Of a stretch of DNA of 5,182 nucleotides, positions 1-5,182 are shown in pieces. The position numbers and the translations under genes are program-made. How positions within the stretch are numbered: position 1 is the first letter of the stretch; each line of letters opens with the position of its first letter. Location of the stretch: contig PBAU01000006.1 of the NCBI GenBank assembly GCA_002716355.1, forward strand, positions 33,678 to 38,859, given 5' to 3'. The notes under the pieces were generated by a model, which was not told where the DNA came from, ran no database searches, and worked only from the letters and a program-made list of their open reading frames with translations. This DNA is from a bacterium (GTDB lineage: Bacteria; UBP7; UBA6624).

Positions 1-131
1 GTACTTGGAGCTGATGCGTTTCCACTTTCTGTAGCCGCATCTTGTGCGTCCGCTTTACCGTTCATGACAAAATATAGAGCAGCAACTACCACAATAATTA
101 TGACTGCTGCAACTTTGTTGTCAACCTGCAT
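1..131 (-). CDS. N-terminus of a membrane-anchored or secreted periplasmic protein, possibly PilP-like (partial, 3' end outside window)
   Basis: Only the first 43 codons are in the window. ATG at 129-131 is preceded by AGGAGG at 141-146 with good spacing, which fixes the start. The peptide begins MQVDNK, followed by a hydrophobic helix at about residues 7-23, then a polar Ala/Ser/Asp/Glu-rich stretch typical of a periplasmic linker. Ala27-Asp28-Ala29 followed by Gln30 fits a signal peptidase I site, so it is either a cleaved signal peptide or an uncleaved anchor. The gene follows pilO in the same direction, where pilP normally lies. PilP couples the PilN/PilO platform to the secretin N0 domain. 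However, PilP is usually a lipoprotein, and no lipobox cysteine occurs in the visible part. The PilP idea rests on position only. That a real gene starts here is well supported; its identity is not. Confidence 0.7.
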   Translation of the reverse strand, partial: MQVDNKVAAVIIIVVVAALYFVMNGKADAQDAATESGNASAPS

Positions 132-182: not shown

Positions 183-1070
183 TTAACCAGATGGACCAAA
201 TCCTCTACCCATTGTTCCATCACCAGAATCACCTCCACCAGTAGGCTGGTTGTTTCCACCAGAAGCATCTGGAATATAAGAACGTGGATCCTGATTGGGG
301 GTTCCATCTTCTGAAAGATAATAAGCAGAACCCTCAATCACTGCTGCTTCCCATGTACCAACAGGTCTTATTGTGAAACCAGAGCTACCGGTTTGGTAAA
401 AAGATAATGCCAACTGATACGCACCAAGGAAATACTCTCCTTCTCTGTTTAGTATAGAAGGGAGACGTTGAACCTTGTCATATGTTCCAGCTGCTACCAT
501 CACAAATGGCAATTTATTTATAAGCATGTTTCCTTCAATACGCGGACCCACACTTCCAAAATTGTAACTACCAGGACCAAACACCTCAGTTACCCTAGGT
601 ATAGGCCATTGGTCTGGAATCTCCTCCCTTCCTTTCTCTTCCCATTCAACTGAAAGAAGCTGACATGATAAACCTGTTATTTGACACGCTGTATTAATAG
701 CACCAAAAAAATTGTCTTGGATATCCCAATTATCTTTAAAGAACATCGGCAAAGCTTCTTGCCATTTTTCTTCATAAACATCATTCAGGTCAATAAGCTC
801 ATGGACCTCATTACTTTTTTGTTTCATTTCTCCAGTTCTTTGTCTTTCACTTGTTATATTGCTTTCTATTGTGGTTATTTCATCAACTTTTGGTTTCTTC
901 ATGCCAGATTCAAAATAATACCAGGCACCACCAACCAACATGATTGTCAATACAACAAGTCCTATATACTTACCTTCTTTATTCTTCCTTGATTCTTGGG
1001 TTGATGGGCCAGCTTCAATCTGAACACCCCCAACAACCTTAGGTCCTTCATCTTTTTTCTTAAAAAACAT
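183..1070 (-). CDS. pilO: PilO-like inner-membrane platform protein
   Basis: This 295-residue protein is a bitopic inner-membrane component expected to pair with PilN and link to PilP and the secretin. It has a charged cytoplasmic N-terminus of about 34 residues (starting MFFKKKDEG), one transmembrane helix at about 35-52, and a polar heptad-like stretch at about 60-100 that fits a coiled coil. A mixed alpha/beta periplasmic domain follows; LPFVMVAAGTYDKVQRLPSI at 187-206 matches the PilO core pattern of a beta strand, a G-x-Y turn and a helix. Cys129 and Cys136 could form a disulfide. The last 25 or so residues are Gly/Asp/Asn-rich and probably disordered. PilO proteins are usually about 200 residues, so the extra length lies in the N-terminal part, the inserted WPIPR-to-GPRIEG region (about 155-179) and the tail. 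ATG overlaps the pilN stop by one base, with GGAGG 6 nt upstream. Assignment rests on topology, order and weak core similarity; a GspM-like role cannot be excluded. Confidence 0.78.
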   Translation of the reverse strand: MFFKKKDEGPKVVGGVQIEAGPSTQESRKNKEGKYIGLVVLTIMLVGGAWYYFESGMKKPKVDEITTIESNITSERQRTGEMKQKSNEVHELIDLNDVYEEKWQEALPMFFKDNWDIQDNFFGAINTACQITGLSCQLLSVEWEEKGREEIPDQWPIPRVTEVFGPGSYNFGSVGPRIEGNMLINKLPFVMVAAGTYDKVQRLPSILNREGEYFLGAYQLALSFYQTGSSGFTIRPVGTWEAAVIEGSAYYLSEDGTPNQDPRSYIPDASGGNNQPTGGGDSGDGTMGRGFGPSG

Positions 1071-2005
1071 TACTGACCTCCAACTCCCATGCCCATACCC
1101 ATGCCACCAGGCATTCCTCCAGAAGGTGGTGGTGCGTTACCACCAGCAACATCACCTCGACCCATAGCTGCCTCAAGCTGATTTTGAATAGCCTGACTGT
1201 CCATAAGTTCAGCACTTATGTCAAACTGCATCTCAAAATTGTATAAAAAAGTAACATCTGGCTTAGCTTCAAAATAAGCAGTTAGCTGTTGAAGAGCACC
1301 GCCAGCAGAACCTGCTTGTTGTTGAGCGACAAAATTAGGATCAACATCAACAGCGTAAGACCAAGAAAATTTTAAAGTTCCTGGGTTGAAAAACTTACTC
1401 GCTTGAATTGCTTTAGCAAACTTGTATATATCCTCTTCTGTTATGGATTGACCAAAGATAGAAACATTTGTCATATCTTCAACTGTGATACCAACAGGGT
1501 TGTTGCCATTTCCAGCTCTTTGAGAGAGCCAAACATTCTTTGGTATCAAAGTTCTAATTTCATCAAGTAAAACTTCCCAAGGAAATTGAGTTGCACCAAG
1601 CAAGGTAACAGCGTAAACTTTAGGTCTCATAGTGTTGTATGTTGTCTTTTCAGAATCAAATAATGTTGCATCTTGTTGATATGAATAGGATCTTGAGCAT
1701 TTCCCAACAGAGGGGGGGTTGGTTTCTGTACCATCCCACTCACCAGACATAGTGTCACAAACAACCTTTAAAACATCTGGGCTTGTGTTTGCATTCCAGG
1801 TTCTAGGTGCTGTTTGCTCTCTTTTAACACTTTGCAATTCTTGATTCTTTTTATCAATTTGCTGATCTAAATCTTTCAAAATTGTAAAACCATAATAAGC
1901 TCCACAAAAAGCCAAAACTGTAACCCATTTAATAATAGATACAGAAGTTTTTTTAACGGTAAACTCACGTGGTAATAGATTAAATACTTTTAATTGCTTT
2001 GACAT
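1070..2005 (-). CDS. pilN: PilN-like inner-membrane platform protein
   Basis: This 311-residue bitopic protein carries the hallmark N-terminal motif (KVFNLLPREF, residues 6-15), the conserved NLLP segment that binds cytoplasmic PilM in known PilM-PilN complexes. A transmembrane helix spans about 22-43 and a short coiled coil about 44-65. The periplasmic ferredoxin-like core is visible at about 143-260: WEVLLDEIRTLIPKNVWL, then a strand-rich part with VSIFGQSITEEDIYKFAKAI and SKFF, the usual PilN order. Typical PilN is near 180-200 residues. The excess is an insert at about 66-128 holding Cys83 and Cys103, a Gln/Ala-rich stretch near 226-242, and a Gly/Met/Pro tail from about 287 to the end. 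The gene starts 3 bp after the pilM stop and overlaps pilO by one base. A run of seven Cs on the coding strand (1712-1718) lies inside the cysteine-bearing insert. Confidence 0.88.
   Translation of the reverse strand: MSKQLKVFNLLPREFTVKKTSVSIIKWVTVLAFCGAYYGFTILKDLDQQIDKKNQELQSVKREQTAPRTWNANTSPDVLKVVCDTMSGEWDGTETNPPSVGKCSRSYSYQQDATLFDSEKTTYNTMRPKVYAVTLLGATQFPWEVLLDEIRTLIPKNVWLSQRAGNGNNPVGITVEDMTNVSIFGQSITEEDIYKFAKAIQASKFFNPGTLKFSWSYAVDVDPNFVAQQQAGSAGGALQQLTAYFEAKPDVTFLYNFEMQFDISAELMDSQAIQNQLEAAMGRGDVAGGNAPPPSGGMPGGMGMGMGVGGQ
1077..1081 (-). promoter_or_regulatory. Shine-Dalgarno site of pilO
   Basis: GGAGG on the minus strand, 6 nt before the pilO ATG and inside the last codons of pilN. It encodes part of the glycine-rich PilN tail as well, and it fixes the pilO start at 1070. 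Confidence 0.75.
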
Positions 2006-2008
2006 AAC

Positions 2009-3400
2009 CTATAAAGCCTCCGTCGCTAAAGAAACAGCAGTTGCAATTTCATATACAGCGCCTCTCATTTTGTCAGGAAACCATTCCGTTGATCCGTAAT
2101 CTATATTCTCTAACGGATCTCCTAAAACTACATCCAAACCACTTTTTTCACTTAGGTAAGCATCAATATTATTGAATCTTCTTATGTTTCCTATCAAAAC
2201 AACCCTACCCAATCTCTCTCTGCTTCTAGACCATGATTCAAAATATCTTTTACTAGAATCTATATCTGAAGCAAAATTATCAAAAACTTTTCGCAAAGCA
2301 TTGTTGACATCAGCCGAAGAAGGCAAATTCGAATCATCATCAAGAGGATCTTCAGTCTTTTCATCAGTTCCGAAAGAAGCAAAAGGGTCATTCTCTTGTG
2401 AATCATCTTCAGTTTCTGAAGAAGTGGAGTCAAGTAAATCTATATCTGTCATTCTAAAAATTTCTGGAAGGTCTTTTACAGAATTACCATCAGGTAACTG
2501 ATCTGCGAAATCTCGAATCACCTTTTCATAACCAAACTCAATAGTTCTTGACAGTCTTCCCGGAGTCAGTGGCAAAGATTTTGCTTTCTTCTTCTTTTTA
2601 GAGCCTTCATCGATATCCATATCTAAATCATCATTAGAGCCAGAAACAAAAAGTATATCAGTTATAGCATTTCTTAAATCAACTATAGCAACGGACTGAG
2701 AATAGTCTTCAAAATATCTAGAGAGCACACTTGTTGCTGACAAAAAACCAACCTTAACACCAACAGGATCCATATTGAGCTGCTGTAAAGCCATAAGGAT
2801 TGGATCAAGAATGGAATATCTTGTTGCAACAATCATCACCTCTTGTTTTTCTATTTCATCTTCAAGTATATCCCTTAAAGTTTCATATTTGAATAAGGTG
2901 TCTTCTGGTGGGAATGGAACGTATTGGCCAAGTTGTACATTGATAGTTTCTTTAAGTTGAGCTTTTGTTAATCTAGGCAACCTAACAACCCTAACAACAG
3001 AGTTGGTTCCAGATAGCCCGACAACAGCCTTTTGACCATTTATACCAGCGTCTTCCAAACCTTTTTTGAGAATCTCTAAGAATTTAGCTTGATCTTGGAT
3101 CCTTCCCATTTTCCAAACACTGCCATCCATGGGTATAAATGCTGCCCTTTCCAAAATCATCTCTTTTTTCTTTTTAGTCATTTGGACAACCCTGATTGAG
3201 TTATCCTGAAAATCAAAACCAACAACAGACTTCTTGTTGACTTTCGTCTTTTTGGGTTTTGCTACTTTTTTTGCTTCACCTTTTTTGTTAGGTTTATTTT
3301 TTGCAAACTTTGCAAAAAGACCGCCCTTTTTCGGTAAAGCCTTAGTTTTCGAATCACTTGATGATTCTTTCTTTTTGTTTTTTAAGAACTTAAATGCCAT
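2009..3400 (-). CDS. pilM: PilM-like actin-fold cytoplasmic platform protein
   Basis: This 463-residue protein is the cytoplasmic PilM (FtsA/actin-like fold), which binds the PilN N-terminus and connects the platform to the motor ATPases. The fold signature runs in order: VVGFDFQDNSIRVVQM (59-74, phosphate-1 hairpin), VVGLSGTNSVVRVVRLPRLT (126-145), the helix ending in QYVPFPPEDTLFKYETL (159-175, strongly PilM-like), SVAIVDLRNAITDILFVSG (236-254, phosphate-2 region), and RVVLIGNIRRFNNIDAYLSE (399-418, adenosine region) followed by LGDPLENI. Typical PilM has about 350-380 residues. The extras are a lysine-rich extension (22 Lys in the first 57 residues), an insert near 255-281 that is acidic then poly-Lys, and an acidic Ser/Asp/Glu insert at about 322-365. 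Nucleotide-binding motifs are degenerate. No signal peptide or membrane segment. It begins 4 bp after the secretin stop and lacks a clear Shine-Dalgarno, suggesting translational coupling. Confidence 0.9.
   Translation of the reverse strand: MAFKFLKNKKKESSSDSKTKALPKKGGLFAKFAKNKPNKKGEAKKVAKPKKTKVNKKSVVGFDFQDNSIRVVQMTKKKKEMILERAAFIPMDGSVWKMGRIQDQAKFLEILKKGLEDAGINGQKAVVGLSGTNSVVRVVRLPRLTKAQLKETINVQLGQYVPFPPEDTLFKYETLRDILEDEIEKQEVMIVATRYSILDPILMALQQLNMDPVGVKVGFLSATSVLSRYFEDYSQSVAIVDLRNAITDILFVSGSNDDLDMDIDEGSKKKKKAKSLPLTPGRLSRTIEFGYEKVIRDFADQLPDGNSVKDLPEIFRMTDIDLLDSTSSETEDDSQENDPFASFGTDEKTEDPLDDDSNLPSSADVNNALRKVFDNFASDIDSSKRYFESWSRSRERLGRVVLIGNIRRFNNIDAYLSEKSGLDVVLGDPLENIDYGSTEWFPDKMRGAVYEIATAVSLATEAL
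2017..2021 (-). promoter_or_regulatory. Shine-Dalgarno site of pilN
   Basis: GGAGG on the minus strand within the last pilM codons, 11 nt before the pilN ATG. The spacing is slightly long, but no better start lies in frame and the NLLP motif follows directly after this ATG. Confidence 0.6.
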
Positions 3401-3404
3401 TTAT

Positions 3405-5182
3405 TTAGTTTTGACTATTAATCAACCTCACTGTAATCAAGAACAGTACTTCTTGATCTGTTGTATTTGTATCAGTTTTAGTAAATAATTTTCCTAAGAT
3501 TGGAACATCACCAAGCCAAGGGAATTTGTTAATTGAAGTAGCAACATTCTCTCTTGAAAGACCACCTAGAACCAACGTCTCTCCATCTTTCAAAACAACA
3601 AGAGTTTGAACTGAGTTATTTGCAGTAGCAGGAACACTGCTGCCTGATTGTCCTGGAACAGTTATAAAACCTGTTATTTCAGAAAATGATGGTGACAAGA
3701 GTAATGTAACCCTCCCTTCATCATCAATGTTAGGAGTCAATTGCAACTGGACACCTGTATCAACCGTGTTAACGTCTGTATTTTCAGTAACCGTAGTTCC
3801 ACCATTTCCATCAGGAATAAAAACAGTTGAGGTTGTTATGAAAGGAGTTGATTGCTGAATGTTTACAAAACAAGGAATACCATCAGAACAGACAACTCTA
3901 GGAGTTGAAAGGACCCTTCCTTGATTTTTATTCAAAGCTGCAGAAAGAGCGGCAGTGTAATCTTCTAAGTTGGTGCCATTGTTTCTTCCCAATATCGCTA
4001 AAGATACTGAAGTTCCAAATGTTAGCTGGAAACGATCCCAAACAGCTTGATTTTGAGATGGATCACTAGATAAACCGAAACTCTTTGTTATACCGTGATC
4101 AAGAGTAAACATTTGAACCTGAATATCAACCTGCCTTGGAGGTTTATCTAATTTTCGAATCATATCTTCAATAGTTTCAATAAGTTCAGGTGTACCTCTA
4201 AGGATAAGCTTGTTACCTTTAGCAGGGAATATAGTTTGGCCAGCACCGCCGCCGCCGCCTAAGCCGCCGCCGCCGCCGAAGCCGCCGCCTCCACCGCCAA
4301 GACCGCCGCCGCCGCCTAAGCCGCCGCCTCCTCCACCACCGCCTGGCAAACCACCAAACTGAGTTGGAGAATAGTCAGGTAATGTTGAAGAAAAACCGCC
4401 GAAGCCGCCGCCGCCGAAGCCGCTACCGCCGCCGCCGAAGCCGCTACCGCCGCCGCCGAAGCCGCCGCCTCCACCCATATTTCCTCCTCCCATTGGACCC
4501 ATGTAATAAGCAAAAGCGCCTGGAGCCATGTCTAACTGACCTAATATTGAAAACAATAATGTTGGATTAGCATAATCAATTTGGATAATCTTTATAACAT
4601 CTAAACCGTACTTGGTTTCTATCTCAGTTCTGTCACCAATAATAACAATCGGAACACCTGCATCACTATTTCTAACCCTGTACTCAAGGCCAGCACTTCT
4701 TACGATAGTGTCCAACGCGGTATCAAAATCAACAGGTGGCAAAGAAAGACTAATTGTTGTACCAAGAGCACCTGTAAGAGCAGTCTGGTCAAAAATTACA
4801 CCAACACCCGCTTGTAAAGCCAAGTTTCTCAAAACATCTTGGATAGGACCGGTGTAATCAATATTAACCTTTATTGGACTTATCTTGTAATCATCCTGAT
4901 CTGGTTCAGGTAATGAAAAATCTTCCCAATCTTCATCAAGTTCAATTTCATCTTCTTCAATAAGCTCATCTTCTGTTGCTTCCTCTTCTTCCAAAAGAGC
5001 CTCTTCCTCAGCAGCTATTCGAGCAGCTTCCTCTTCAGCAGCGATCCTTGCAGCTTCCTCTTCAGCAGCGATCCTTGCAGCTTCCTCTTCAGCAGCGATC
5101 CTTGCAGCCTCTTCCTCAGCAGCTATTCGAGCAGCCTCTTCCTCAGCAGCGATCCTTGCAGCCTCTTCCTCAGCAGCTATTC
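3405..5182 (-). CDS. pilQ: PilQ-like outer-membrane secretin (5' end outside window)
   Basis: The frame is open from the right edge to the TAA at 3405-3407, giving 591 whole visible codons; the start and any signal peptide or AMIN domains lie beyond the edge. A start at TTG 4992-4994 is unlikely because the frame continues upstream through a regular coding repeat. Order of parts: Ala/Glu-rich 9-residue repeats (5182-4992), acidic linker (about 4991-4887), N0/STN domain (about 4883-4620; VNIDYTGPIQDVLRNLALQA), N1 domain (about 4607-4140) split by a poly-glycine insert, then the secretin barrel domain (about 4137-3415). The barrel shows GRVLSTPRV, GVQLQLTPNIDDEGRVTLLL, LVVLKDGETLVLGGL, the late motif FPWLGDVPILGKLF and a final VLFLITVRLI strand. 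One N0 plus one N1 fits PilQ better than GspD, which has three N1-type domains. No pilotin-binding C-terminal tail is present. A cysteine pair (CSDGIPC, 3890-3870) replaces the usual residues after the STPRV segment. It forms the outer-membrane pore through which the filament passes. Confidence 0.93.
   Translation of the reverse strand, partial: IAAEEEAARIAAEEEAARIAAEEEAARIAAEEEAARIAAEEEAARIAAEEEAARIAAEEEALLEEEEATEDELIEEDEIELDEDWEDFSLPEPDQDDYKISPIKVNIDYTGPIQDVLRNLALQAGVGVIFDQTALTGALGTTISLSLPPVDFDTALDTIVRSAGLEYRVRNSDAGVPIVIIGDRTEIETKYGLDVIKIIQIDYANPTLLFSILGQLDMAPGAFAYYMGPMGGGNMGGGGGFGGGGSGFGGGGSGFGGGGFGGFSSTLPDYSPTQFGGLPGGGGGGGGLGGGGGLGGGGGGFGGGGGLGGGGGAGQTIFPAKGNKLILRGTPELIETIEDMIRKLDKPPRQVDIQVQMFTLDHGITKSFGLSSDPSQNQAVWDRFQLTFGTSVSLAILGRNNGTNLEDYTAALSAALNKNQGRVLSTPRVVCSDGIPCFVNIQQSTPFITTSTVFIPDGNGGTTVTENTDVNTVDTGVQLQLTPNIDDEGRVTLLLSPSFSEITGFITVPGQSGSSVPATANNSVQTLVVLKDGETLVLGGLSRENVATSINKFPWLGDVPILGKLFTKTDTNTTDQEVLFLITVRLINSQN
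4245..4355 (-). repeat. Poly-glycine tract 2 of the secretin N1 insert (GGC runs)
   Basis: Encodes 37 residues that are almost all Gly, broken by single Leu or Phe residues and one Pro (LGGGGG and FGGGGG-type units) and ending just before AGQTIFPAKG. Codons are largely GGC with some GGA/GGT, which makes the plus strand a run of GCC/CCG triplets in otherwise AT-rich DNA. It probably forms a flexible loop in the N1 domain. Confidence 0.9.
4392..4490 (-). repeat. Poly-glycine tract 1 of the secretin N1 insert, with 21-bp tandem units
   Basis: Encodes about 33 residues of Gly with periodic Phe and Ser. A 21-bp unit occurs as two perfect tandem copies (4416-4436 and 4437-4457) with partial copies on both sides; in protein it reads GGGGSGF. 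A 12-residue non-glycine spacer (SSTLPDYSPTQF) separates it from tract 2. Confidence 0.9.
4992..5182 (-). repeat. 27-bp in-frame tandem repeat, at least seven copies, running off the right edge
   Basis: Each unit encodes IAAEEEAAR. Seven isoleucines at exact 27-bp spacing (codons at 5178, 5151, 5124, 5097, 5070, 5043 and 5016) mark seven copies; the last decays to IAAEEEALL. The peptide is identical in the other six, although codons vary. Ala/Glu/Arg composition with regular Ile predicts a long charged helix or rod, probably periplasmic and N-terminal to the N0 domain of the secretin. Confidence 0.95.

Follow-up and report, generated by a model that had tools for sequence, protein, structure and literature searches.

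It has long been asked how secretins stay closed outward and yet pass a 6 nm filament, and of these channels the N-domain loops in contact with the filament are resolved least well. The last N domain before the barrel is termed N3 in cryo-EM papers (PMC7545093, PMC12114550), and its variable loops have been described as disordered, variable, and pore-facing or constriction-forming (PMC6155069, PMC6882859, PMC8563730). In InvG, the N3 variable loop comprises residues 217-265 (PMC6155069). It is disordered in other structures, is suspected of forming a periplasmic constriction, and is ordered when the needle is present; in the needle-bound state it runs outward between N3 and N1 (PMC6155069). 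In f1 pIV, disordered N3 loops are directed into the pore (PMC8563730). BfpB, the secretin of the EPEC bundle-forming pilus, has an extended N3 beta-hairpin with a Ser-rich loop that was proposed to ease pilus passage (PMC12114550). Herein, we describe a PilQ-type secretin from UBP7 whose loop in the last N domain consists largely of two glycine arms holding an island. In the literature collection that we searched, no publication on a glycine-rich PilQ insertion was found.

The locus and its secretin gene

The window, the whole stretch of 5,182 nucleotides that was analysed, corresponds to C6:33678-38859 in a 1.26 Mb genome of UBP7, the phylum Candidatus Bimafiota, which is known from saline and marine water (PMC11382960). 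The same-genus relative of the window genome is MAG UBA7824, also UBP7. The features of the window are as follows.

3405-5180, minus strand: pilQ, PilQ-type secretin gene, 591 codons, 5' end lost at the contig end
5001-5180, minus strand: tandem AAEEEAARI repeats N-terminal to N0, seen in the translation, at the contig end
4620-4889, minus strand: N0 domain, residues about 98-187, weak phmmer match to N0 of 4ar0/9sh1/6w6m, inferred borders
4530-4610, minus strand: last N domain, first half (beta-1, alpha-1), from alignment with homologues
4491-4529, minus strand: aromatic lead-in MAPGAFAYYMGPM, GWYVY-type in the G018 group
4395-4490, minus strand: Gly arm 1, residues 231-262, 32 aa
4356-4394, minus strand: Gly-poor island FSSTLPDYSPTQF, residues 263-275, some island being present in all relatives
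4359-4367, minus strand: P-x-Q motif of the island (PTQ)
4245-4355, minus strand: Gly arm 2, residues 276-312, 37 aa
4110-4244, minus strand: last N domain, second half (beta-2, beta-3, alpha-2), preceded by the exit, NKLILRGTPELIETIEDMIRKLD, Pfam Secretin_N positions 25-69
3420-3932, minus strand: secretin barrel domain, residues 417-587, Pfam PF00263
2009-3400, minus strand: pilM, PF11104 5.5e-21
1070-2005, minus strand: pilN, PF05137 4.8e-4, slightly below the cut-off
1073-1144, minus strand: PilN tail, Gly/Met/Pro-rich (GGNAPPPSGGMPGGMGMGMGVGGQ), with a Gly-rich tail in G002 too
183-1070, minus strand: pilO-like gene, assigned by position, with one N-terminal membrane segment and the same gene order in relatives
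186-266, minus strand: tail of the PilO-like protein, Gly-rich (ASGGNNQPTGGGDSGDGTMGRGFGPSG)

The window secretin matched Pfam Secretin (PF00263, E 2.3e-37) and Secretin_N (PF03958, 5.1e-07), both exceeding the cut-off. The best match was the NCBIfam PilQ family TIGR02515 (1.5e-38, 132.9 bits), which lay under its curated cut-off of 284.35, a naming threshold and not a structural feature. The gene adjoins pilM-pilN-pilO(-pilP), in which PilM is identified by its PilM_2 match (5.5e-21), PilN by a weak match, and PilO and the PilP-like protein from position and gene order only; a Pfam search of the window proteins gave no match for the pilO-like protein. The PilP-like gene comes next, just beyond the window end. 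The order pilQ-pilM-pilN-pilO-pilP-like is retained among relatives, and in UBP7 and the G018 group it is followed by a NuoN-like gene, so named by reading of its sequence. Judged on domains and operon rather than on TIGR02515, the window protein is a divergent, PilQ-type secretin.

Several other features of the locus were recorded. PilM has a Lys-rich N-terminal extension of ~58 residues (window 3225-3400). A small minus-strand frame (MQVDNKVAAVIIIVVVAALYFVMNG...) begins at window 1-131, between the pilO-like and PilP-like genes, and continues past the window. Scattered N bases occur in the window's contig downstream of pilO (L002, about 6850-9520). A stretch resembling the AAEEEAARI repeats (86% identity) is found in a separate 306-aa frame of the same genome (G000:C11:88008-88112).

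The glycine-rich loop of the last N domain

The initial annotation had reported a poly-Gly insertion of about 82 residues, and its coordinates were matched exactly: minus-strand window 4490-4245 encodes residues 231-312, of which there are 82, with 55 Gly and 7 Phe. The flanks that it quoted were also recovered, VIKIIQIDYANPTLLFSILG at residue 195 and NKLILRG at residue 323. The tract is not a single run, however, as two Gly arms flank a 13-residue Gly-poor island. The insert is arranged as the lead-in MAPGAFAYYMGPM, the 32-aa Gly arm, the island FSSTLPDYSPTQF, the 37-aa Gly arm, AGQTIFP and then beta-2 (NKLILRG), and the whole insertion amounts to ~104 residues once the lead-in and the exit AGQTIFP are counted. 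The island, its P-x-Q motif and the glycine-rich tails of partner proteins, all found here, had been missed. In UBP7, the arms contain spaced Phe and no charged residue.

The tract was also present in two other UBP7 assemblies, a congener (97% protein identity) and a member of another genus (77%, with Ns within the tract). An assembly or frame artefact was rejected because the tract was found in three assemblies. The GC content was 71% in the tract and 40% in the remainder of pilQ, and the Gly codon GGC accounted for 37 of 55 codons in the tract versus 5 of 35 in the rest of the gene (Fisher p about 1e-6). When the tract was compared with that of the congener, 15 gapped columns were observed, all in multiples of three and confined to the arms; none occurred in the island or in about 1,240 flanking bases. 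This gap pattern fits slippage of triplets within the arms, the island staying fixed.

The initial annotation placed the tract in N1. Part of the type IV pilus literature uses that name for the last N domain before the barrel, and other papers on these pili use N3; its structural counterpart is GspD N3, not GspD N1. The Pfam Secretin_N match picks up at profile position 25, past the insert. In phmmer alignments, the residue after the insert corresponds to beta-2 in PilQ 6w6m and 6ve2/9x0w, which have short Gly-containing loops at the insert site (GGEGNVNMLSERG, DGGQEGKEGGRG). InvG from 261 aligned with window residues from 310, and MxiD from 271 aligned with beta-2. Like the secretin N3 variable loop, the insert follows alpha-1 and precedes beta-2 in the last N domain. 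Since these aligned InvG and MxiD residues come directly after the InvG N3 loop 217-265, we take the insert to be an N3 variable loop that has been enlarged. The domain that holds it is N1 in PilQ and corresponds to N3 in GspD/InvG. An AlphaFold2 model of the window protein, built from 17 alignment rows of which most were distant, had a mean pLDDT of 39 and no usable loop. By homology only, from published structures, the loop would be disordered in the closed ring, face the pore or the N-domain seam, and be open to reordering by a filament. The lumen position may apply in one state only, given the outward course of the InvG loop with the needle.

We compared the loop with those of other secretins. 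The last-domain loops had a median length of 29.5 (about 30 aa) and a 90th percentile of 80 among 68 other loops, a set made up of only those loops that both half-profiles detected. For the beta-1/alpha-1 half, iterated profiles drifted on the large set and a stricter profile was used instead. The Gly fraction of these 68 loops was at most 0.23, the G018 row excepted. The maximum Gly count per 60 residues had a median of 11 among 126 distinct secretins and reached at least 34 only in UBP7, L006/G018 and L007/G006. Other secretins hold varied low-complexity loops of 14-133 aa at this site. Thus, the loop length is at the upper end of normal, and the glycine content is a true outlier.

Inheritance of the insert and glycine-rich tracts in partner proteins

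The arm-island-arm design was found in every readable PilQ (16 sequences) of three phylum-level groups, namely UBP7, the 10-genome G018 phylum and the 4-genome G111 phylum. We looked for relatives without the insert, a case that the initial annotation had set against its own proposal, and all readable clade relatives carried it; the PilQ of some relatives was interrupted by contig ends or by Ns in the tract, and G126 yielded only a barrel-less PilQ paralogue. The 16 armed PilQs formed one clade on core sequence, with UBP7 outside the other two groups, at a support of 100/97 from a bootstrap that had not fully settled. Identity between the groups was about 35-40%. The same design and a single clade in three phylum-level groups indicate that the insert is old and inherited. 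On this tree, the insert has a single origin and was retained in three phylum-level lineages. The G006 secretin L007 (G006:C11) also has a poly-Gly insertion before beta-2 of its last N domain. It falls outside the clade, has no second arm and no P-x-Q island was seen, so its insert is apparently independent.

Arm 2 was mostly 30-40 aa, with 24 and 19 in two cases, the latter next to a contig end. Arm 1 was mostly 21-44 aa where complete, and 77 in G111 by the same rule. The glycine content of the arms held at about 0.6-0.9 and the spacers varied: UBP7 has Phe and Leu, G018 Arg and Asn, G128 Ala, G111 Gln and G134 Phe, and Ser also occurs. The arms of several relatives contained no FG pair, and those of G134 contained the most, 11. 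Arm aromatics numbered 0-12 across the clade, with none in G018 and G381 and one in each of G130, G131, G128 and G132. The conserved aromatics lie in the lead-in and the island, not in the arms. The island varied in length and sequence and retained aromatic residues. P-x-Q stood just before arm 2 in 14 of 15 islands (PTQ, PSQ, PLQ, PMQ, PIQ, PEQ), G131 being without it; the G393 island, read after this count, has QPMQ. Per-sequence shuffles yielded P-x-Q in 6-38% of cases, figures that describe conservation and are no test, since the motif was chosen after inspection and the sequences are homologous. As judged from these comparisons, the conserved features are flexibility, glycine content, roughly arm length and the P-x-Q island, and not the spacer residues or FG/YG stickers.

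Shorter PilQ-like paralogues, with N domains and one Gly arm and without a secretin barrel, were observed in the G018 phylum and in G381/G393 (L189-L196, L187, L223, L224).

Glycine-rich tracts occur in several parts of the one machine. PilO of G002, G111, G381 and G255 has a long poly-Gly tail at the C-terminus, and some partner tails end alike (GLSL in G002, GLSLGAG in G111). The PilP-like protein of genus g1 has a terminal Gly/Arg tail, and a Gly-rich tract lies inside PilN in the G018 group, G111 and G381. In the window genome, 17 of the 38 matches to five GGN codons fell in one stretch of 5.3 kb that begins with the PilP-like gene and reaches pilQ, where 0.16 was expected; these matches overlap and are therefore not independent, and the genome-wide glycine counts come from pattern searches. 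Several other matches that were examined were linkers directly after a lipoprotein-like signal. These partner-protein Gly tracts lie at window 1073-1144 and 186-266, at L033:5183-5872 and in L233, L234 and L235.

Proposed role, rival readings and known systems

We tentatively propose that the two flexible glycine arms with their docking island may act as an elastic collar and as a tether from the secretin to the alignment complex. The 12-15 loops of a ring, a subunit number assumed from other secretins, would form a compliant mass filling or lining the last N ring without a pilus. The island would dock weakly on a partner within a few nm, the candidates being the neighbouring N domain and the PilN-PilO-PilP complex. 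An outgoing pilus would push the arms aside, into the vestibule or between subunits, much like the rearrangement of the InvG loop, and the loop would work as collar and tether together. The function is a proposal and the pore-facing position is taken from homology, and we infer the filling, docking and yielding.

The roughly one thousand flexible residues per ring estimated in the initial annotation agree with our count of 984-1230 for 12-15 subunits. The calculated rms reach of a 35-aa arm was near 3.5 nm. The dry volume of 14 inserts was about 147 nm3, against 163 nm3 in an N ring of 77 A x 35 A; 64 nm3 remains around a 6 nm pilus, and 14 inserts exceed twice that, with the bore taken from a table in PMC12114550 and assumed values for ring height, pilus width and persistence length. 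Loops facing inward would thus take up most of the ring at rest, and since the volume of the inserts is more than double the space left around the pilus, they would have to be displaced. Of the original interpretation, a long flexible insert in the last N domain, in a loop published as disordered, pore-facing or constriction-forming (PMC8563730, PMC6155069), is supported, and the comparison with FG sequences is not.

If the Gly/Phe arms of all subunits gelled into a selective plug of the channel, like FG nucleoporins or PEX13 YG, the spaced Phe and missing charge of the UBP7 arms, the 11 FG pairs of G134 and a thousand or so residues per ring within a small volume would be understandable, and PEX13 YG domains do gel via aromatics with short Gly/Ser linkers between them (PMC9795577). 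However, YG gelation requires aromatics (PMC9795577), and here the conserved ones are in the lead-in and island; six members of the clade have one arm aromatic or none, and spacers in the clade include Arg, Asn, Gln and Ala. With 0-11 FG pairs across the clade and stickers that are not conserved, the resemblance to FG-type disordered sequences does not hold throughout the clade. Because the arms across the clade do not keep aromatics, the FG-repeat reading was rejected as a shared conserved role, and a cohesive phase of this kind seems very unlikely. Rather than a gel of the nuclear-pore kind, the insert probably forms a compliant lining or a docking tether. It is also conceivable, if unlikely, that slippage of GGC triplets enlarged a permissive disordered loop which itself serves no function. 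The GGC bias, the GC-rich tract, the congener triplet indels confined to the arms and the varied low-complexity loops of other secretins at the same site are consistent with such neutral growth. With neutral repeats, one would nevertheless expect some lineages to have shortened them, dropped them or given up their glycine, whereas the insert was kept in all 16 sequences of the three groups, arm 2 mostly stayed in its narrow length range, each sequence has an island, and P-x-Q was kept while other residues turned over. Neutral slippage explains the DNA of the arms, as far as the sequences tell, but does not account for why arms and island were retained.

The glycine-rich tracts of the partner proteins bear on two further readings. 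The PilQ arms might form polyglycine-II-like bundles with the tails of PilN, PilO and the PilP-like protein, a zipper joining the secretin to the inner-membrane alignment complex. Each of the three groups has such a tract in PilN, PilO or the PilP-like protein, and the clustering of overlapping five-GGN matches described above points the same way, but the tract-bearing partner varies: PilO of the G018 group is without one, the PilP-like tail is confined to genus g1, and the PilN tract is internal or terminal. We regard this zipper as improbable. It is similarly doubtful, and to our minds hardly probable, that arms and tails constitute a shared disordered or polyglycine-II phase which fills the periplasmic conduit and is addressed by the P-x-Q islands. 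If true, the shared phase would amount to a glycine seal in bacteria, one that three candidate phyla have retained.

We retain the compliant collar and tether as a tentative working proposal for a clade whose long flexible loop with a conserved peptide offers flexibility, length and docking as separately variable properties in one loop.

Compared with known systems, the nearest are the secretin N3 variable loops (InvG 217-265 and the f1 pIV N3 loop), which occupy the same last N domain, the InvG loop stopping just before the aligned beta-2; the unmodelled PulD loop 288-303 is probably an equivalent N3 variable loop. Those loops are short to medium and of mixed sequence, whereas the UBP7 loop has about 104 aa, two poly-Gly arms and a conserved island. 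Canonical PilQ (V. cholerae 6w6m, P. aeruginosa 6ve2) has a Gly-containing loop in the identical place, but it is much shorter and without island or arms. BfpB, also the secretin of a type IV pilus, likewise carries a large insertion in N3, situated below the gate; its hairpin (residues 214-253) is structured and near the N3 start, while the UBP7 insert lies before beta-2 and is glycine-dominated. With FG nucleoporins and the PEX13 YG domain, too, numerous disordered chains rich in Gly occupy or surround a ring-shaped conduit, but the arms of the UBP7 clade have no conserved aromatic stickers, and there is no cargo receptor and no homology. By sequence comparison, the known kind to which this insert belongs is the secretin N3 variable loop, and what is new is the pair of glycine arms holding a conserved island.
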